64,000 nucleotides of DNA from Sediminispirochaeta smaragdinae DSM 11293 (lineage in GTDB: Bacteria; Spirochaetota; Spirochaetia; DSM-16054; Sediminispirochaetaceae): assembly GCF_000143985.1 (NCBI RefSeq), contig NC_014364.1:1550001-1614000 (forward strand), written 5' to 3'. Every line of letters begins with the position of its first letter. Positions within the stretch are counted from its first letter, which is position 1. Both the position numbers and the translations under genes were made by a program. Below are positions 51,149 to 60,475 of the stretch, piece by piece. The notes beneath the pieces were generated by a model. It searched no databases. It was given only the letters and a program-made list of their open reading frames with translations, and was not told the origin of the DNA.

Positions 51149-52393
51149 TTACTCTACGGTATTGAGCCTTCGCATATCGAGCAGCAGATCGAGGCTCCTT
51201 TGTGCCAAATCAAGGTTTTCACGAGCGGGTCTGTAGGTGGGATCGAGGTCGAGAACAGCTTCCCAATATTGGATTGCCCGCTCAAAATCGCCCTGGGCAT
51301 AGGCTTCGAGACCGGCGATGTAGTACTCGTCGATACGTTGGGCTGTCATCTGTCGCCCATCATCCCCTAATGCCATTGTCGCCTGAAGACTGAAACGGTC
51401 GAGAGAGCTGAGCTGGGTGGTAAGATCGAGGGTGTAGTTTGCAATAATGGTCAAATCATTCAGGTCCACCGATCCCCCGAGGGTGAATCGCGGGTTTGAA
51501 CCCCTGTGAGTAAAGCCTGTTTGCATGGCAAAATTGTCGGTGACAGCGACTTTCGCTCCGGTCGCAAAGTAGGGATGTTCCCACTGTTCGGCCGGAAGGG
51601 TCAGAGAAAAAGGAACGGTGTAATCAAAGCTTACGAGAAGCGGCCTGAGGGGGGAATAGGCAAAGCCGAGGCTGGCGTTAGACGGAAGATTATCGTCGAG
51701 GCTGGCAAAACCGATGTTTCGTACTGCAAGGCCGAGGGAGAAATTTTTGTCCCGCGATGGATACGGCTTCAAAAAGTTAAATCTGGTGAGGGCTCCAAGG
51801 TCGATCATCCCCGCGAAGGCCGATTGGCCGGAGGCTATCGATTCCGGTACATTTCTGTATGCTCCCTTGAGCGTGGCTCCCACAGAAAGACCCGAGAAGT
51901 CATAGGAGCGGAAGGCATTGTAGGAAGCGTTTGCGTAGAGTACCGTTTCCGAATAGTAGCCGCTTCCGGCTCGGTCTCCCCAGTCGTTGTAGGCGGTGAA
52001 GGGAACGTAGAGAAATTTCCCTCCGAAGCCGAACCCGAAGTTATCCTTTCTGGAGGTAAAGGCGGCTGATTCGATATTGGTATCCGCGATCCAGTCGTTG
52101 TGCATAAGGGATAGCTGTGTAACATCGATACGGCTGCTGCCTGCAGGATTTGCCTCCAGGAAACCGACATCGCTGGCAACGGCGGTAAAGGCCGTTCCCA
52201 TCCCCTCATAGAGTCCTCCGAAAGGGATAAGAAGGGTGGTGAAGGCACTTTGGCCGGTATTGGGATCGGTGATGAAACCCGAATCGGCAAAGGAGGAATA
52301 GCCGCTGTAGAATTCCGAAAGATCGGCGAAAAGGATCGCCGGTACAAACAGAATGAGGAGGAAAAATAACGGTCTATTCCGAATATTCATCAT
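51149..52393 (-). CDS. UPF0164-family outer-membrane barrel with C-terminal TPR
   Basis: 414 residues. Signal peptide FFLLILFVPAILFADL, then a barrel typical of the UPF0164/PorV-like family known from treponemes: GYSSFADSGFITDPNTGQSA, IPFGGLYEGMGTAFTAVASD, VGFLEANPAGSSR, and many alternating beta strands. The last 60 residues form a TPR-like pair (YAQGDFERAIQYWEAVLDLD). Expected place: outer membrane. It is divergent from the large exported TPR protein, sharing a 90-base control region. A run of overlapping -10-like hexamers ends at the ATG, with no ribosome site nearby. Confidence 0.87.
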   Translation of the reverse strand: MMNIRNRPLFFLLILFVPAILFADLSEFYSGYSSFADSGFITDPNTGQSAFTTLLIPFGGLYEGMGTAFTAVASDVGFLEANPAGSSRIDVTQLSLMHNDWIADTNIESAAFTSRKDNFGFGFGGKFLYVPFTAYNDWGDRAGSGYYSETVLYANASYNAFRSYDFSGLSVGATLKGAYRNVPESIASGQSAFAGMIDLGALTRFNFLKPYPSRDKNFSLGLAVRNIGFASLDDNLPSNASLGFAYSPLRPLLVSFDYTVPFSLTLPAEQWEHPYFATGAKVAVTDNFAMQTGFTHRGSNPRFTLGGSVDLNDLTIIANYTLDLTTQLSSLDRFSLQATMALGDDGRQMTAQRIDEYYIAGLEAYAQGDFERAIQYWEAVLDLDPTYRPARENLDLAQRSLDLLLDMRRLNTVE

Positions 52394-52483
52394 CTTATAC
52401 TATACTATCTTCCTTCTGGTTTATCCAGTAATTATCCTGCCGATAATGTGATACAGTGGGATAGAAACAGAGTAGCGGAGCAA
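52394..52483. promoter_or_regulatory. Divergent control region of the envelope locus
   Basis: 90 bases between the barrel gene and the TPR gene. Next to the barrel's ATG are overlapping -10 hexamers on the reverse strand (TAGTAT, TATAGT, TATAAG). The forward gene has a GGAG ribosome site at 52477-52480. No strong -35 is seen in either direction, so activator control is possible. Confidence 0.35.
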
Positions 52484-55477
52484 ATGGAGCCAGTACGTAC
52501 GCGGCCTTTGAAAACATATATTTTTCTCATCTTTTTCGTTTTGTTGCCGGTTTGGCTCTTTGCCGGAGGGCAGCAGGAGGACCCTGTCGATACGGCTCGT
52601 CAGCTTATGGCCGAGCGGCGGTACAACGATGCCATCCTGGTTCTTACCCAGATGATGAAGGAGGATCCTGATCGCTTTGATCAGGCTGAAGAACTCCTTC
52701 AGCAGGTTCGGGCCATTCGGGACCAGTACAATCGCTATTATGCCGAATTGATAGAGGTTCTGGATCCTCCGGACGGCGGGGAGATCGATGAAGATCATGC
52801 GTATGATCTGATTACAAAGATGGAGGCTCTCGACAGTGATCCTAACCCGGCGGCCGTCCAGGCCTTTGCTCAAATGCGTGCTTCGATTGTGTTTGCCGTC
52901 AACGATAGAAAATTCCGTCGGATTATCGAGGAGGCATGGCAGCTCCTGGAAAAAAAGGAGTACGATCAGGCCGTTGCACTCTACCGATCGGGTTTCGATC
53001 TTCATCAAAAACTTTTTTTGGAGAAGGATTACGGTGACGATGTTTTCGAACAGGTTCGCACGCTTCGTCAGAGTCTGGAGAATCTTTCCGATGCCTTCCT
53101 TCTTGATCGTCCCGAGGCATCATCTTTTTACGATCACGTTGTGGAAGCTCTTCGGCAGGAAAATAAAGTGGATCTTACCAATACCATCGACACCTTCGGA
53201 AGGGCTATGCTGGCTGTAGACGAGCAGCGAGGGGGGATCCTCTACGATGCTGAGGAGCTCGAAAAACTCAAAGTCTCGGTGCAGAGCGAAGATGAAAACG
53301 ATGTTCCTTATCTTTCCACATTGAGGGTTCTCGCAAGAGGGAGGGCGGATGCCGAAGCCCCCGAAGGAATTGCCGGAACCATTCTGCGCTTTTCCAACGG
53401 TTCCTACACCTCTCTCTTCGAGGGGATTGGTGACCTCGCCGAAAAGGAATACCAGTCGGGGGTCGCTTCATACCATGAAGGAAGAGAGGACGTGGCTGCC
53501 CGCTTTTTTCGATCTGCAGGTGAATATACACAGATGGTGGAGCAGCTGATTGCTTTTGAAAACGGAGGAACCGCTCCTACCATGGAGAATCTGGCGGAGA
53601 GCGGTAGTGAGATCACGGAGCAATTTCTTTTTTCTCGGGTTCTGGAAAGCGCCAGTGGTCAGTTTACGGAACTTGCTGCTCTGAAGGCTGAGCTGGGAGG
53701 AGAAAACGAAGCGTGGGAAAGCCTGGATACCGAAGCCCTGGCCCTGCGCAGAGACCGCATCCTCGATCTTCAGGCAAGGATCGAGGCCGTTGCCGATCCC
53801 GTGAAAAGCCTCTCTTCCTCTCTTGATGAGTACGAAGCCCCCATCGCCGTTGACCGCCCCAAGGCCCTTGCCGGGCAGTTATTGAGCGCCGTGGACGAGG
53901 CATCCGACCAGAGTTCTGCCATGGAGCTTGAGGCGGTTTCGCGTCGCGCTTCGATTATCATTGCTCAACTGAGCAGCCGTCTTTCGGAGAGGCAAAACAG
54001 CATTGAAAAAGCACAGGCTCTTATCGAGGGCAGCCAAGAGACAATTGTCGAGGGGGCCGATCCCATCGTAGTGCGGCGCCCTGATCAGGGGATCAGTATC
54101 GTTGAAGAGACCCTGCCGACCCTGGATGCCCTTGATCAGGATATCGCCTCCATCTCCGCCTCTCTTTCCGCCGAAAGCGATGCGATTATCGCTTCTCCTG
54201 CGATGAAAGAATCGCTCTCTTCGACAGATACGATGCGTGCCGATATCATTTCGCTTCGCAACACCGGAACAACACTCCTTGCACGGGGGGAAGCATTAAA
54301 CCGACAGGCCGATCTTGCCCTTGCCGAGGGGGAGCTTCGTTTCAGTGAAGCGGAGAGCCGTCTCGACGACGAGAGTTTTGAGCAGGCAAGGGACAAGTTG
54401 GAGCAGGCAGGCACGGCATTGGCCCAAAGTCTTACCTATCGTGAAGATCAGCAGGTCAGGAGTCGTATCGATAACGATATACCGGATCTTGCAGACCGGA
54501 TCATTGCGGCACAAAATCGGCAGATTGTTCGGCAGGTACGTGCGTTAATCAACCAGGGCCGTGATCTTTTCTTTCAGGAAAAATTTATCGAGGCCCAGCA
54601 GACCCTTCAAAGGGCCCAGGCACGCTGGCTGCAAACCAATACCGAAGAGGAACCCGAAGTCAACAGCTGGCTCGAACGGGTCAAGCGAGCCCTGGATACC
54701 ACAAGTGGTGTGGAACTTGCGATTGCCGATCCCCTTTATCCCGAAATGACTCAGATGCTCAATCTCGCCCGCAAAGATTTTCTCGATGGCAAACGACTTT
54801 TCACCTCCGGCGACCGAGATAAAGCGCTTGCGCAATTTTCCGAGGCCGAACGTAAGATCGAATACGTGAAGGAGCCCTTCCCAAATAACAAAGATGCCAG
54901 TATCCTCTATCTTCAGATCTTGCAGTATACCGAGCCCGACGACTTCGATGCTATTTTTTCCAGTCGGTTCAACAATGCAAGGCGCCAATTGAATTCGACG
55001 CCGGAAGAGGCGTATCGGGAGCTCAAGGTTCTTGAAGCGATTCGACCCGATTTCGCCGGAATGGAAAAGGCCCTATACGATGCGGAAATTGCAACGGGTA
55101 TCAGGCAGCCGCCTCCCGATCGGGCGAAGCTTGCCAGGGCCAGGGACCTTTACGGCGATGCCGAAAAGATTGTGGAAAACGACGTGCGGGCGCAATTTCC
55201 GGTGGCTATTGCCTATTTGAACGAGGCGATCAAGCTTAACCCCGATTATAATGATGCCATTGTGCTCAAGGACAGGATACAAGCCGGAAGCGGCGGAGCA
55301 GTTACCGTTGTTCTTTCCAGTGTCGCGCAGCAACAGCTTAAGCAGGCAGAGGACCTCTTCATAGAAGGGCGCTATTTCGAGGCAAGCGTTATTGTGGAGC
55401 AGCTGATGAACAACACGAAGAACAGGAATAATCCGAAACTCCTCGATCTCCAGAAGCGAATAGAGGCACGCCTGTGA
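52484..55477 (+). CDS. Large exported TPR/coiled-coil protein
   Basis: 997 residues. The signal peptide is IFLIFFVLLPVWLFAGGQQE (no lipobox Cys, so probably cleaved after LFA). N-terminal TPR-like repeats (ARQLMAERRYNDAILVLTQM) are followed by a long acidic, heptad-rich central region (e.g. LEQAGTALAQSLTYRED), and C-terminal TPRs (FPVAIAYLNEAIKLNPDYND, EDLFIEGRYFEASVIVEQLM). Likely a periplasmic scaffold. It is divergent from the barrel gene and overlaps the receptor gene by one base (TGATG), so it is probably that receptor's partner. I do not recognise a characterised homologue. Confidence 0.82.
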   Translation: MEPVRTRPLKTYIFLIFFVLLPVWLFAGGQQEDPVDTARQLMAERRYNDAILVLTQMMKEDPDRFDQAEELLQQVRAIRDQYNRYYAELIEVLDPPDGGEIDEDHAYDLITKMEALDSDPNPAAVQAFAQMRASIVFAVNDRKFRRIIEEAWQLLEKKEYDQAVALYRSGFDLHQKLFLEKDYGDDVFEQVRTLRQSLENLSDAFLLDRPEASSFYDHVVEALRQENKVDLTNTIDTFGRAMLAVDEQRGGILYDAEELEKLKVSVQSEDENDVPYLSTLRVLARGRADAEAPEGIAGTILRFSNGSYTSLFEGIGDLAEKEYQSGVASYHEGREDVAARFFRSAGEYTQMVEQLIAFENGGTAPTMENLAESGSEITEQFLFSRVLESASGQFTELAALKAELGGENEAWESLDTEALALRRDRILDLQARIEAVADPVKSLSSSLDEYEAPIAVDRPKALAGQLLSAVDEASDQSSAMELEAVSRRASIIIAQLSSRLSERQNSIEKAQALIEGSQETIVEGADPIVVRRPDQGISIVEETLPTLDALDQDIASISASLSAESDAIIASPAMKESLSSTDTMRADIISLRNTGTTLLARGEALNRQADLALAEGELRFSEAESRLDDESFEQARDKLEQAGTALAQSLTYREDQQVRSRIDNDIPDLADRIIAAQNRQIVRQVRALINQGRDLFFQEKFIEAQQTLQRAQARWLQTNTEEEPEVNSWLERVKRALDTTSGVELAIADPLYPEMTQMLNLARKDFLDGKRLFTSGDRDKALAQFSEAERKIEYVKEPFPNNKDASILYLQILQYTEPDDFDAIFSSRFNNARRQLNSTPEEAYRELKVLEAIRPDFAGMEKALYDAEIATGIRQPPPDRAKLARARDLYGDAEKIVENDVRAQFPVAIAYLNEAIKLNPDYNDAIVLKDRIQAGSGGAVTVVLSSVAQQQLKQAEDLFIEGRYFEASVIVEQLMNNTKNRNNPKLLDLQKRIEARL

Positions 55478-58400
55478 TGTACCGCCGAGCCCCTTTGCTC
55501 TTTTGCCTGGCGTTTGTGCTGTTCGCTGCCTTTCAGGCGGAGGCTCAGCAGTTCTACTGGGAACGTCCCGAGATTTTGGTTGATGCGAACGCCTCCTTTG
55601 TCCGAAGTAGCTCAAATGGCGAACGTTCTGCCTTTCTCTGGCATGAATATGGTGAGCCCTCCGATGGTTATCGTGATCTCTATATTTCACTGATGAGCTA
55701 CAGGAATACATGGGAACGCCACGAGCGGGTGCTCGGACCCTTCCGCTATGTAGGAGAAAAGGTTCCCGTTGCTTCGATGGTGATCGATAAAGCCGGACAT
55801 ATCTTTATCGCTCTTGCCACCTCAGGCAATACCATCGCGATCTACCGTTCCGATGACGACGGAGCAAGCTTTGTAAAGGTTGCCGAGCCCGGAATCGGAT
55901 CGGAAGAGAGGACTGTTGTTGCTCCCCGCCTCTTTTTGTCTTCTACAGGTTCCCTCGTGTTATTCGTTACCAGCCCTCTCATCTCAGAGGGGCTCCAAGC
56001 CCTTACCAGTGAGGTGAGTCTTGGGGCCGCTTTTTCCGTGAGCCGGGATGGACGGGAGTGGAGTGAGTTCACTTCCCTTGCAAAAGGAAGCAATCTTGCA
56101 TACGTCTATTTGCCCTCGCTTGCCCACTACGGAGGAAAGGATTATGTGGCCTTTCAGGCCTCTCCTCAGGAAAGCCGTTTTTATCAGCTCTATCTCGTAT
56201 CAAGCAGCGACGGAGGAGCGAGCTGGAGTTCGCCTCGGCTGATAAGCGATTTTGAGGATCGATCCATTTCCGATGATGGCGATCCCAACCTCTACGATAA
56301 TCAACGCCCCTACCTGTACGGCAATGGAAAGGGGCTTGCTGTGGCATGGGAGCGCAGATACTCGGGAAGCTCCCCTCCCCAGATCTTCTACGCCGAATTG
56401 AGTCCCGAAGGGGCGGTTGTCGGGGTACCCGAGCGAATTTCCCAGGGCAGCAACGTCTGTAGGAATCCGGTCATTACCGAGACGGCGGGGGAAAGGGTCC
56501 TCTTCTGGTTCGACGATAGCAAGGGGGATAATCGTATCTTTTTCGCCCTCAGACGAGGCGTTTCCTGGGATGCGGAAGATGTGAGCGTCATGAACGGTGT
56601 CAGCGCCTTTCCCGTTCCCATGTTCCGCTCCGGAGAGCTCTCCCTGCTCTGGGAGAACAGCTTTGCGAACAGATCGCGTATCGCCTTCCTTGCCCCGGAT
56701 AAGAGCGCTTCACCTCCCCAAGTCCGTCCCCTCAATTTCCGGCAGGGGCGTCCCGCCAAACAGGATAGTTTCATCGTATCCTGGAACCTTCCGGACGACT
56801 CTTCGGGTATCAGCGGTTTCAGCTATTCCGTCGATCGTGATCCGGAGGGCGATCCTCCTCAACGGTTGATGTTGTTGCGCAGGGAAGAGCGCCGTTTTTC
56901 CGCCTCCTTAAAGGAGGACGGCCCCTGGTTCTTTCATGTTGCGGCACAAGATTACGCTGGCAACTGGTCGAAAAGCGTGACCATTGAGGCTCTTCGTGAT
57001 ACCACACCTCCCTCTCCCGTTCTCTTTATTGATCCCGAGCTCGACGGCGACGGTTTTCTTCCTTCCAATACCGGAAACATCGCTTGGGAGCCTCCTTCAG
57101 AAACGGATGTTGCGGGTTACACATACCGACTTCAGTATCTTACGTCTGCCGATTATACAGGGGATCCCGAGGCCCTGCCCGTTCGTCCCCCTTCAGATAG
57201 TATCCGGCTGCAGGTTCCTTCCCTAAGCTTTCGAAATATCGATAACGGTTTGTGGGCCGTTACCGTGGCGCCTGTGGATCAGGTAGGAAATGTCGGCGAG
57301 GCCGTTTCCTTTCGGATGAGATTGAATAAGTATATTCCGGTCACCTATGTTACGGATATCTCCCTTCGGGAGGATGACCTGGGCCGCTATCTCATATCGA
57401 TTGTAGGTCGTGGCTTTTCGGTAGGGGGCAAGATCGGGACGGTCCTGCTCGATAGGGATGGAAAACCGCCCTACGATTACAGCTTTGATGCGGAAAGCGC
57501 CGTGTATCGAGTGGTCTCCGACCGTCGAATCGAGGGACCGGTGATCGAAGACATCGACGGCGGCGACTATCACCTCGGGGTCATCCACCCGACCAGGGGC
57601 TTGTACCTTACCCGAAGAACGCTAAGCTTCTCCGACACCGGTACCGTAAAGTTCGGAGATTTTACGATTCTCCAGCGTCCAGCCCTGCATCTTATCCGGC
57701 TTCCCTTTTCCACCCTATCGGGAGGAACCGTCGCCTTTGTCCTTGTGATGGTTCTTTTAGGAGCAAGTTTTCTCTTCGTGTCCTGGCGTATCCTTCGCCT
57801 GGTTCAGGAGGGTAACCTGCTCCGGAACGAAGCCGTCGCCTTGCTGGAGCAGCGCCGCCTGCCGCATGAAGAACGAAAAGAGAGGATTATCACCATGGCT
57901 AAAGAACGAAAGGGGCTAAGAAGAAAATTTGCCCTGCTTGTTACATCTCTGGTCTTGATTGTTGTTCTGCTTGTCGCCCTGCCGATGGGCCGTTTTATGA
58001 TTAATACACAGCAGAGGAGTCTTGCAGACGGCCTTTTGCAAAGTACCAGGGTTTTGGTGGAGAGCCTTGCATCGGGTGCGGGAAAATATCTTCCCGAAGA
58101 GAATACCATAGAGCTTGGTCGACTTCCGGCACAGAGTCGGGCGGCCGAGGATGCACTTTATGCTACCATTACAGGGGTACGCAGTACGCAGGTTCCCGAT
58201 ACCGATAATGATTATTTTGATTACCTCTGGGCGACGAACGACCCCTCTATCGCCGAAAAATTGACCGGCGAAGATGCCGGAGGAGGGCAGAACTCCTTTC
58301 GGCGCGGGGCTGCCCGGATCAAAGATGATGTTTCTCCCTTTATCGACGAACTTAGGGAGCGTATCGATGACAGGGCGGAGGCCGAGGTCGGGGCCCTTAG

Positions 58401-60150
58401 CCAGGAATTGGCAGAGTTGCAGGAAAAAGCCAGAGATGCAGCCACCAGATTGGTCACGCGGCGAGATGAGGATACGGCCCAGCTGCTCCAGGAGCTGCAG
58501 GATTCCATAGCTTCGGTCAGTGAGGAGATAGAGGCAACGTTGCAAGGTATCGGGAGCGAGGTCTCTTCCGTGCCCGCTTTCGATCCCGAAACCATCCTTA
58601 CCGGGCCCAGCGAATATAGCTTTTACCGGCCCATTGTCTATCAGGATTCGAATCGTCCGGGAGTATATTACCACGGCCTGGTCCGGCTCGGTATCACAAC
58701 AGAACGTATTCGCGGTGAAATCATTGCCAGCCGCGACAGGTTGATTCGGCAGACTGCCGTTATTGCCCTCGGTGCCGTTCTTCTCGGAATTTTGGGTTCC
58801 CTGCTTCTTGCGGCCATCATCATCATCCCGATTCGAACCCTGGTCCGGGGCGTTGAGGTCATCAGCGAAACCGACGATAAGGAAAAGCTCAAGGACCACG
58901 TCATCGTTGTAAAAACCCGGGACGAGCTTTCCCAACTTGCGGAGACCATCAACGAGATGACCCGCGGACTGGTAAAGGCGGAGAGTGCGAAAAAGGACCT
59001 TACCATTGGAAAAGAGGTTCAGAAGATGTTTATTCCCCTGGAGCAGGACTCCAGGGGCAACAAAAAAACCACAGCCTCGGACAACTATCCTGGACTCAAC
59101 TTTTTTGGCTACTATGAGGGGGCAAAGGGTGTTTCCGGCGATTACTTCGACTATATGCAGCTGCCCGGAAATCTTTACGCCGTCATCAAGTGTGATATCG
59201 CGGGAAAGGGCGTTCCCGCTTCTTTGATCATGGTCGAGGTTGCGACGATTTTCAGGAATTTTCTCAACGAGTGGAAACGGGAGCAGGAGAGAATTCTATC
59301 TGTCGCCTCCTCGAAGGGAATTGCCCCCCGCAAGCAGGAACCGGCCATCGATCAGCTGGTGGCCAGTATCAACAGTCTTGTGCAGGAACGGGGCTTTCAG
59401 GGACGGTTTGCGGCCTTGATCGTCGTGCTTATCGACGGGGCAACGGGAAAAACCGTTTTCTGCAATGCCGGAGATAATCAGGTTCACCTTTATCAGGGAA
59501 AAGAGGAGTCCATGGAGATGATGACCCTCCCTGCCGCGCCTGCGGCAGGGGTTTTTCCGAATGATCTGATCGATATGAAAGGCGGTTTTTCCAAGGTTCC
59601 CCATGTTCTAAGATCCGGAGACAAGCTTTTTCTCTTTACCGACGGTCTTGAAGAGGCTCAGAGAAAGTTTCGTAATGAACGATTCGAAGTTGTCACCTGC
59701 GAAGAACCAGGCCTGGAGCAGGGGCAGCTGCATGATACCCACCCGGTCGGCAACGACAACGAGGAGTTGGGGATCCCCCGGATCCATGAAATCATCAATA
59801 CCTTCTACAGGAAGGGACGTTACCGACTGGAGAAGTATCACAACCCAATTCCCGGCGAGGTCCTCGAATTTGATTTTGCCTCCTGCGGTTCCGGCATAGA
59901 GGATGCCGTGCTCGCCCTGGTCGCGGTTGAAAAAATCTTCAGGCTCAACCCGGATCCAAAGGCAGGCGAGAGTGATGTTGTCAATGTCGATATCAGAATC
60001 GATGATTTCCTGCAATGTTGTTTCGTGCAGTTCGAACACTATTTCGGTGGGAAGGAAATCGGCCGAAACGATACCTATATCACCTACGGCTCTTTGAAAG
60101 AGGATGAGCAGTACGACGACCTGACCGTCCTCGGTATTGAAAAGGTGTGA
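55477..60150 (+). CDS. Giant receptor: beta-propeller, FnIII, three membrane helices, HAMP, PP2C (SpoIIE-type) phosphatase
   Basis: 1558 residues. Signal peptide LLFCLAFVLFAAFQAEA. Residues 30-420: sialidase-like beta-propeller with Asp-box repeats (YRSDDDGASF, SRDGREW, SSSDGGASW). About 425-625: two FnIII domains. TM1 near 744, a short cytosolic linker with EERKERI, TM2 near 816 (FALLVTSLVLIVVLLVALPM), a 250-residue periplasmic sensor with a coiled coil (SQELAELQEKARDAA), TM3 near 1093, HAMP, then PP2C from about 1174. Catalytic acids are present: GVSGDYFDY, DIAGKGVPASL, FTDGLEEAQ and the final DDLTVLGI; about 110 extra residues lie between the last two. SpoIIE/RsbU-type enzymes dephosphorylate anti-anti-sigma factors; none is present here, so the target is unknown. 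It starts as TGATG with the previous gene. Confidence 0.9.
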   Translation: MYRRAPLLFCLAFVLFAAFQAEAQQFYWERPEILVDANASFVRSSSNGERSAFLWHEYGEPSDGYRDLYISLMSYRNTWERHERVLGPFRYVGEKVPVASMVIDKAGHIFIALATSGNTIAIYRSDDDGASFVKVAEPGIGSEERTVVAPRLFLSSTGSLVLFVTSPLISEGLQALTSEVSLGAAFSVSRDGREWSEFTSLAKGSNLAYVYLPSLAHYGGKDYVAFQASPQESRFYQLYLVSSSDGGASWSSPRLISDFEDRSISDDGDPNLYDNQRPYLYGNGKGLAVAWERRYSGSSPPQIFYAELSPEGAVVGVPERISQGSNVCRNPVITETAGERVLFWFDDSKGDNRIFFALRRGVSWDAEDVSVMNGVSAFPVPMFRSGELSLLWENSFANRSRIAFLAPDKSASPPQVRPLNFRQGRPAKQDSFIVSWNLPDDSSGISGFSYSVDRDPEGDPPQRLMLLRREERRFSASLKEDGPWFFHVAAQDYAGNWSKSVTIEALRDTTPPSPVLFIDPELDGDGFLPSNTGNIAWEPPSETDVAGYTYRLQYLTSADYTGDPEALPVRPPSDSIRLQVPSLSFRNIDNGLWAVTVAPVDQVGNVGEAVSFRMRLNKYIPVTYVTDISLREDDLGRYLISIVGRGFSVGGKIGTVLLDRDGKPPYDYSFDAESAVYRVVSDRRIEGPVIEDIDGGDYHLGVIHPTRGLYLTRRTLSFSDTGTVKFGDFTILQRPALHLIRLPFSTLSGGTVAFVLVMVLLGASFLFVSWRILRLVQEGNLLRNEAVALLEQRRLPHEERKERIITMAKERKGLRRKFALLVTSLVLIVVLLVALPMGRFMINTQQRSLADGLLQSTRVLVESLASGAGKYLPEENTIELGRLPAQSRAAEDALYATITGVRSTQVPDTDNDYFDYLWATNDPSIAEKLTGEDAGGGQNSFRRGAARIKDDVSPFIDELRERIDDRAEAEVGALSQELAELQEKARDAATRLVTRRDEDTAQLLQELQDSIASVSEEIEATLQGIGSEVSSVPAFDPETILTGPSEYSFYRPIVYQDSNRPGVYYHGLVRLGITTERIRGEIIASRDRLIRQTAVIALGAVLLGILGSLLLAAIIIIPIRTLVRGVEVISETDDKEKLKDHVIVVKTRDELSQLAETINEMTRGLVKAESAKKDLTIGKEVQKMFIPLEQDSRGNKKTTASDNYPGLNFFGYYEGAKGVSGDYFDYMQLPGNLYAVIKCDIAGKGVPASLIMVEVATIFRNFLNEWKREQERILSVASSKGIAPRKQEPAIDQLVASINSLVQERGFQGRFAALIVVLIDGATGKTVFCNAGDNQVHLYQGKEESMEMMTLPAAPAAGVFPNDLIDMKGGFSKVPHVLRSGDKLFLFTDGLEEAQRKFRNERFEVVTCEEPGLEQGQLHDTHPVGNDNEELGIPRIHEIINTFYRKGRYRLEKYHNPIPGEVLEFDFASCGSGIEDAVLALVAVEKIFRLNPDPKAGESDVVNVDIRIDDFLQCCFVQFEHYFGGKEIGRNDTYITYGSLKEDEQYDDLTVLGIEKV

Positions 60151-60154
60151 AGCG

Positions 60155-60475
60155 ATGGCAAAAAAGGCGAAGTTCTACTGTGAAAGTTGTGGAGCCGAGG
60201 TGGATGCGGGAACTATCCGCTGCCCTTCCTGCGGCAGTCGTTTCTATGGGGTCCAGTGTCCCCGCTGCGGCTATGCAGGGCCCTCCTCTCTTTTTGTAAA
60301 GGGTTGCCCGTCCTGCGGCTATCTTGCCCCGTCCCAAAGGGGTAGGGAACCTGCGCTTGAGCAGGTTGCGCAGGACTCATCTCCCCGTTCGCTTCCTACC
60401 TGGTTTTATCTTCTGATTATCATCATACTTTTGGGTGCCTTGGGCTTATTGACCTTTCTCTATTACAGACTGTGA
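60155..60475 (+). CDS. Tail-anchored double zinc-ribbon protein
   Basis: 106 residues from the ATG at 60155, 4 bases after the receptor stop. Two tandem zinc ribbons: CESCGAEVDAGTIRCPSCGS and CPRCGYAGPSSLFVKGCPSC. A linker leads to one C-terminal membrane helix (TWFYLLIIIILLGALGLLTFLYY). Probably a small adaptor held at the membrane beside the receptor. Its last 13 bases overlap sfsA tail to tail. No function is known to me for such a protein. Confidence 0.78.
   Translation: MAKKAKFYCESCGAEVDAGTIRCPSCGSRFYGVQCPRCGYAGPSSLFVKGCPSCGYLAPSQRGREPALEQVAQDSSPRSLPTWFYLLIIIILLGALGLLTFLYYRL

Follow-up and report, generated by a model that had tools for sequence, protein, structure and literature searches.

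A dual-sensor transmembrane SpoIIE/PP2C phosphatase of spirochaetes with candidate envelope partners and a candidate STAS-domain substrate

Does a chain in which two seemingly complete membrane units follow each other represent one receptor or two proteins joined by accident, and what might such a receptor perceive and act upon? The question is raised by a single open reading frame (55477-60150, + strand) in a stretch of 64,000 nucleotides from Sediminispirochaeta smaragdinae DSM 11293, in the following called the window. It encodes 1,557 amino acids plus stop, and we refer to the product as SPP, a dual-sensor transmembrane SpoIIE/PP2C phosphatase. To the initial annotation it looked like two membrane proteins fused into one chain, and homologues with always separate halves, together with a sequencing error around 57,870 joining them here, were named as a case that would speak against this reading.

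From the N-terminus, SPP is composed of a signal peptide, a beta-propeller, two FnIII domains, a third beta domain and a first membrane helix (TM1), followed by a basic hairpin, TM2, a periplasmic sensor of about 260 residues, TM3, a HAMP domain and a PP2C domain of the SpoIIE type. Hydropathy places the signal peptide at residues 5-23 and membrane helices at approximately 750-770, 818-838, and 1098-1118; a further peak at residues 1311-1329 belongs to the PP2C core and is not seen in the family average. With the signal peptide cleaved, the first 725 residues or so would be periplasmic, the hairpin (771-817) cytosolic, the domain between TM2 and TM3 again periplasmic, and HAMP and PP2C cytosolic. 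We infer this topology across the inner membrane from the sequence.

Structures were predicted with AlphaFold2 for two halves, residues 25-820 and 738-1557, on about 80 relatives, and both were modelled confidently (mean pLDDT 89.7 and 89.2, respectively). Foldseek searches retrieved propellers with the first half and PP2C domains with the second. The Pfam scan of SPP revealed SpoIIE and HAMP matches, only weak BNR_2 and fn3 matches, and no kinase family; the output is a PP2C phosphatase and not a histidine kinase. While a PDB search with the single sequence returned nothing useful, profile searches gave matches limited to Asp-box, FnIII, and PP2C regions. Pfam, hydropathy, AlphaFold2, and Foldseek together agree with the domain order proposed by the initial annotation and add one domain to it. 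Sequence and models likewise uphold its proposal of two extracytoplasmic modules in one chain, and SPP is a clear example of two such sensors stacked in one phosphatase.

The ectodomain begins with a type I-like signal peptide (residues 1-24; 55477-55548) with AEA/QQ cleavage and without a lipobox cysteine, as judged by sequence and hydropathy. The propeller (residues 28-412, approximately; 55558-56712), recognised by AlphaFold2, Foldseek, profile, and motif, carries two strict Asp boxes, SDDDGASF at residue 125 and SSDGGASW at residue 243. FnIII domain 1 (residues 413-510, approximately; 56713-57006) rests on a weak Pfam fn3 match, the model, and profiles, and FnIII domain 2 (residues 511-617, approximately; 57007-57327) on the model and profiles. 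A third beta-sandwich (residues 618-720, approximately; 57328-57636) with the motif GRGF..GG...LDRDG is seen in the AlphaFold2 model and has no Pfam match. This domain between the FnIII pair and TM1 had been missed by the initial annotation, as had the coupling to the upstream gene described below.

The propeller may, as the initial annotation supposed, read a glycan or protein. Given its fold, it could also have glycoside hydrolase or sialidase activity, in line with the modelling of the Treponema pallidum protein TP0854 (PMC5956850), such that the phosphatase would report on the product. Its best match among solved structures is the GH145 enzyme BT3686 (5muk; TM-score 0.68 on the target), followed by rhamnose-glucuronate lyase and sialidases, and W291-E292-R293, Q227, and P331 are invariant in the family, which speaks for this reading. 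However, a motif scan of the propeller found neither the RIP motif of the sialidase arginine triad nor its RLP form, and profile searches showed sequence similarity to sialidases only locally, around one Asp box. BT3686 and the sialidases share the propeller fold but are free enzymes. We thus consider an enzymatic propeller very unlikely. Among the fold matches are also the Bacteroides hybrid two-component sensors BT4663 and BT4673, in which a periplasmic propeller and an Ig-like domain stand on a membrane helix as in SPP. These sensors carry two propellers, signal through a histidine kinase, and differ from SPP in having no PP2C domain.

TM1 (residues 749-770, approximately; 57721-57786), supported by hydropathy and the models, leads into the presumably cytosolic basic hairpin (residues 771-817; 57787-57927), which contains 14 K/R and 7 D/E and is unbroken in all relatives. 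The suspected junction near 57,870 falls in this hairpin. Beyond TM2 (residues 818-838, approximately; 57928-57990; hydropathy and model) lies the second periplasmic sensor (residues 839-1097, approximately; 57991-58767), described here by model, Pfam, and PDB search. AlphaFold2 predicts four strands and a helical hairpin (residues 950-1026, approximately), and a weak sCache_3_2 Pfam match was obtained for three of 41 members (best E 5.8e-4). The best PDB matches of this sensor, coiled-coil, apolipoprotein-like proteins aligned on the helical hairpin, were attributed to composition and set aside. TM3 (residues 1098-1118, approximately; 58768-58830; hydropathy and model) is followed, in the expected place, by the HAMP domain (residues 1115-1165; 58819-58971; Pfam, profile, and model) and by a helical linker reaching to about residue 1205. 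HAMP scores 24.4 bits (E 3.8e-5) against a Pfam cut-off of 25 bits, and the region also aligns with the HAMP regions of BaeS and WalK.

The C-terminal PP2C/SpoIIE phosphatase (residues 1206-1557, approximately; 59092-60147) is supported by Pfam, Foldseek, profile, and its metal-site aspartates. The PF07228 match covers residues 1232-1402 (E 1.9e-21; 77.3 bits against a cut-off of 25 bits). D1222, D1240, D1389, D1547, and D1548 of the metal site are identical in 80 of 80 sequences checked, so that the intact acidic residues noted initially hold throughout and a catalytically competent phosphatase appears likely. In structure, the second half matches the RssB, SiaA, RsbX, and SpoIIE phosphatases; the best Foldseek and profile matches of the PP2C domain are the C-terminal phosphatase domain of RssB, SpoIIE, RsbX, and Rv1364c, which share the fold with SPP but are soluble or have different sensors. 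SiaA of Pseudomonas aeruginosa (6k4e; E 1e-8) is a membrane HAMP-PP2C protein acting on a STAS protein; it differs from SPP in having a single sensory module and different partners.

An unusual insertion of about 110 residues within the phosphatase had also been pointed out, and it proved to be a family-wide feature of about 107 residues (residues 1430-1540, approximately; 59764-60096, edges approximate; model, spacing, and alignment). The spacing from the TDG to the DDLT motif amounts to 159 residues in SPP and to 147-171 in all relatives. Three SpoIIE paralogues, from the window genome and the T. pallidum group, have 51-53 residues there, and thus the insert is real. It is modelled at a pLDDT of about 95 and is about as conserved as the PP2C core (mean majority fraction 0.62 versus 0.65). 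Its position is just before the last metal-site aspartates. With no relative in Pfam or PDB, it constitutes a small domain for which these two resources offer no occurrence outside this PP2C; we know of no such insert in RssB, SpoIIE, RsbX, or Rv1364c. It may provide substrate specificity.

With the architecture at hand, the question of a fusion can be addressed by the distribution of the chain. In the search for relatives a single SPP sequence matched nothing, while an alignment query found loci. Of 60 relatives, 37 have an orthologue, in most cases as a full-length single chain; among 297 Spirochaetia genomes, 174 are positive at a strict cut-off and 176 after follow-up. The domain order of SPP is shared by other spirochaetes, where the initial annotation had suggested looking for it. 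A detailed comparison was made for 80 of 312 matching loci, and in all 80 SPP is a single chain that is open through the region of 57,870. Most of the 176 positive genomes carry the full-length chain, complete chromosomes included; some genes are broken by contig ends in draft genomes. A genome of the T. pallidum group (G077) holds a full-length orthologue of 1,533 amino acids.

Short homologues were sought as a sign of separate halves, and no genome with one gene for each half was found. The two short forms examined have 873 and 900 residues and come from G246 (a complete chromosome; L230:7771-10392) and G291 (L231:5661-8363), respectively, both away from the usual neighbours. They consist of a signal peptide, a stub, and then the chain from TM1 through the PP2C domain with its insert. 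The stub ends in GT.K.GnF, compared to GTVKFGDF in the long form. As they keep TM1 and a remnant of the ectodomain end, the short forms look like deletions of the ectodomain from the long form. From them it follows that the second unit can exist without the first, but not that the halves were once separate.

A recent fusion, or a joining by sequencing error near 57,870, would fit the resemblance of each half to a complete membrane unit and the presence of an ectodomain-less form in two genomes. It is opposed by the one open frame in 80 relatives and in most of the 176 genomes, complete chromosomes included, and by the features of the short forms that point to deletion. A frameshift or sequencing error at this position is ruled out, since the orthologues are mostly full-length single chains, and we regard this explanation as a whole as exceedingly improbable. 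Consequently, the idea of homologues with always separate halves does not hold, and the description as two fused membrane proteins finds no support. An ancient fusion predating the last common ancestor of the SPP family is possible.

We turn to the genes around SPP. The gene upstream (52448-55477, + strand) encodes a large protein with a signal peptide and weak TPR matches below the Pfam cut-offs, which is presumably periplasmic. Its TGA shares one base with the ATG of SPP. It adjoins SPP in 78 of the 80 loci, with a stop/start overlap of 1 or 4 nucleotides in 63 of these 78; in none of the 78 are the two genes more than 54 nucleotides apart. Due to this overlap, SPP is probably translationally coupled to the upstream gene of the secreted helical-repeat protein. 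Of the two loci without the adjacent gene, L058 reaches the record end, and L074, which carries a full SPP, is a true exception.

Divergently oriented further upstream lies a UPF0164/PorV-like gene (51149-52393, - strand), whose product would be an outer-membrane beta-barrel; its similarity to the PorV/PorQ family amounts to 66 bits against a cut-off of 90 bits, and it has a C-terminal TPR-like stretch. It is found near SPP in 54 of the loci compared, 80 in number; many of these 80 end too early to include it. In the set of 60 relatives, the genomes with SPP, those with the coupled gene, and those with the UPF0164 gene are an identical group of 37, and G077 has this trio too. Members of the UPF0164-type family stand in tandem as well in the T. 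pallidum group (L226:14726-18000). Downstream, a gene for a double zinc ribbon protein with one hydrophobic helix (60137-60475, + strand) overlaps the end of SPP with its start; 30 of the 80 loci have a homologue of it in the vicinity of SPP.

What could the phosphatase act upon? A scan for STAS domains revealed a protein of about 185 residues that has a four-cysteine ribbon at its C-terminus and closely follows SPP in its distribution. In the window genome it is encoded at 143,866-144,420 (L101:5867-6424), with a CesT_Tir/YbjN-like and a PspA/IM30 gene as neighbours, and it is not linked to SPP. In the T. pallidum group the gene, which we take to be TP0233, is located just upstream of nusG and ribosomal-protein genes. 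Between the first 60 relatives, distant families included, identity of the protein (P0002) is mostly 72-92%, and it is far more conserved than SPP. It occurs in 36 of the 37 SPP genomes of this set. Among the 297 genomes both proteins are found together in 159, a number that rose to 161 when two sub-threshold SPP genes were added. The STAS-zinc-ribbon protein is thus present in 161 of 176 SPP genomes, and the 15 exceptions are all fragmented drafts, 60-94% complete.

The reverse does not apply. Eleven genomes have the STAS-zinc-ribbon protein but no SPP, six of them drafts (63-85% complete). The others, G119, G173, G179, G258, and G266, belong to the Treponema family and are at least 97% complete; a dedicated search found no SPP in them. 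Their STAS-zinc-ribbon proteins are 51-68% identical to that of the window genome, compared to 69% for the G077 copy, and four of the five are clearly more diverged. The YVSSTGIG motif and the four cysteines are invariant, the SPP-less genomes included. As these five near-complete genomes keep the protein, it must have another use or another phosphatase there. The relation thus holds in one direction: the STAS protein can be expected wherever SPP is present, but its presence does not predict SPP. On an RpoB tree, co-loss of both amounts to two independent contrasts on supported branches and six on the best tree, which is not significant. The two genomes with short forms add a different kind of evidence. 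In G246 and G291 the ectodomain is gone and neither the coupled nor the UPF0164 gene lies beside SPP, while TM1 to PP2C with the insert and the STAS protein are retained. This pattern suggests that the envelope partners are associated with the ectodomain, and the STAS protein, which we propose from these comparisons as the best candidate substrate of SPP, with the phosphatase half.

Two other targets have to be weighed. SPP could be an ordinary HAMP-PP2C receptor acting on a canonical short STAS protein, with the zinc-ribbon link reflecting shared ancestry. The window genome does hold, at 1.40 Mb, a canonical cluster of a STAS protein (116 aa), an RsbW-type HATPase (184 aa), and a SpoIIE phosphatase, and there are few independent contrasts in favour of the zinc-ribbon partner. 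Yet this cluster already has its own adjacent phosphatase, and in the T. pallidum group the short STAS gene adjoins two other SpoIIE phosphatases (L227:3354-7329 in G077), which leaves the zinc-ribbon STAS protein as the one without a linked phosphatase; we judge this alternative unlikely. Near the canonical cluster, the window genome also encodes a protein with two CBS domains and an RsbW-like HATPase domain (L102:2645-4003).

Alternatively, the phosphatase may be active with a main target that is not a STAS protein at all. The unique insert ahead of the last metal-site aspartates and the five genomes with the STAS protein but without SPP would be compatible with this. On the other hand, fold and sequence group the domain with RssB, SiaA, RsbX, and SpoIIE, several of which work in STAS systems, and the metal site is intact, so that a non-STAS target appears quite unlikely.

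On balance, we lean towards SPP being a two-input receptor-phosphatase of the inner membrane, with its inputs in series, envelope partners, and the STAS-zinc-ribbon protein as substrate, a reading built on sequence comparison and models. One input, facing the envelope, would be made up of the propeller ectodomain together with the periplasmic repeat protein and the outer-membrane protein; the Cache-like domain would provide a second, small-molecule or mechanical one. According to published work, a crossing helical linker and a dimer are probably the means by which HAMP and other sensors regulate PP2C domains (PMC12143880). By analogy with other SpoIIE-type phosphatases, we infer a similar control for SPP, in which both inputs would alter the packing of the TM-HAMP-linker dimer and so switch the phosphatase. 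The PP2C domain would then strip phosphate from a Ser/Thr of the YVSSTGIG motif, and the dephosphorylated STAS-zinc-ribbon protein might bind another partner and thereby change gene expression or envelope homeostasis.

RsbU of Chlamydia trachomatis is a membrane-spanning HAMP-PP2C protein that dephosphorylates RsbV1 (PMC4552016). It resembles SPP in its membrane span, HAMP, and PP2C domain, and is unlike SPP in that its RsbW kinase has been identified. To our knowledge, neither a propeller-FnIII ectodomain, nor an extra membrane helix, nor an insert has been described for RsbU. The partner-switching cascade supposed by the initial annotation would now have a candidate substrate; for SPP no cognate kinase was found, and the T. 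pallidum-group genome has no HATPase_c_2 match above the Pfam cut-off. Along this line, we tentatively suggest, as a more far-reaching and rather doubtful extension, a spirochaete-specific trans-envelope line leading from the UPF0164/PorV-type protein through the periplasmic repeat protein and SPP with its new insert domain to the STAS-zinc-ribbon protein, kept even in the reduced genome of the syphilis group; the STAS partner in this line might do without a classical RsbW kinase.

Parts of this system have been described before. TP0854 of T. pallidum (TPANIC_0854, TPASS_0854), which by its annotation is taken to be the orthologue of SPP and the 1,533-residue copy of G077 with its coupled and UPF0164 genes, has been published as a SpoIIE family phosphatase, a sialidase-like model, or a HAMP protein (PMC10600179, PMC5956850, PMC5951579). 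These studies addressed the sialidase-like or the HAMP part alone and did not join the two inputs, the insert, and the partner set. Its annotation as a SpoIIE phosphatase and its modelling on sialidases were thus already known, while the coupled secreted helical-repeat gene, the divergent UPF0164/PorV-type gene, and the STAS-zinc-ribbon candidate substrate are new here.

Few envelope-sensing systems have been recognised in spirochaetes, T. pallidum above all. By sequence, SPP is conserved through much of this group, the syphilis group included, and supplies a conserved receptor for which a cytoplasmic target and partners in the envelope can be named as candidates.
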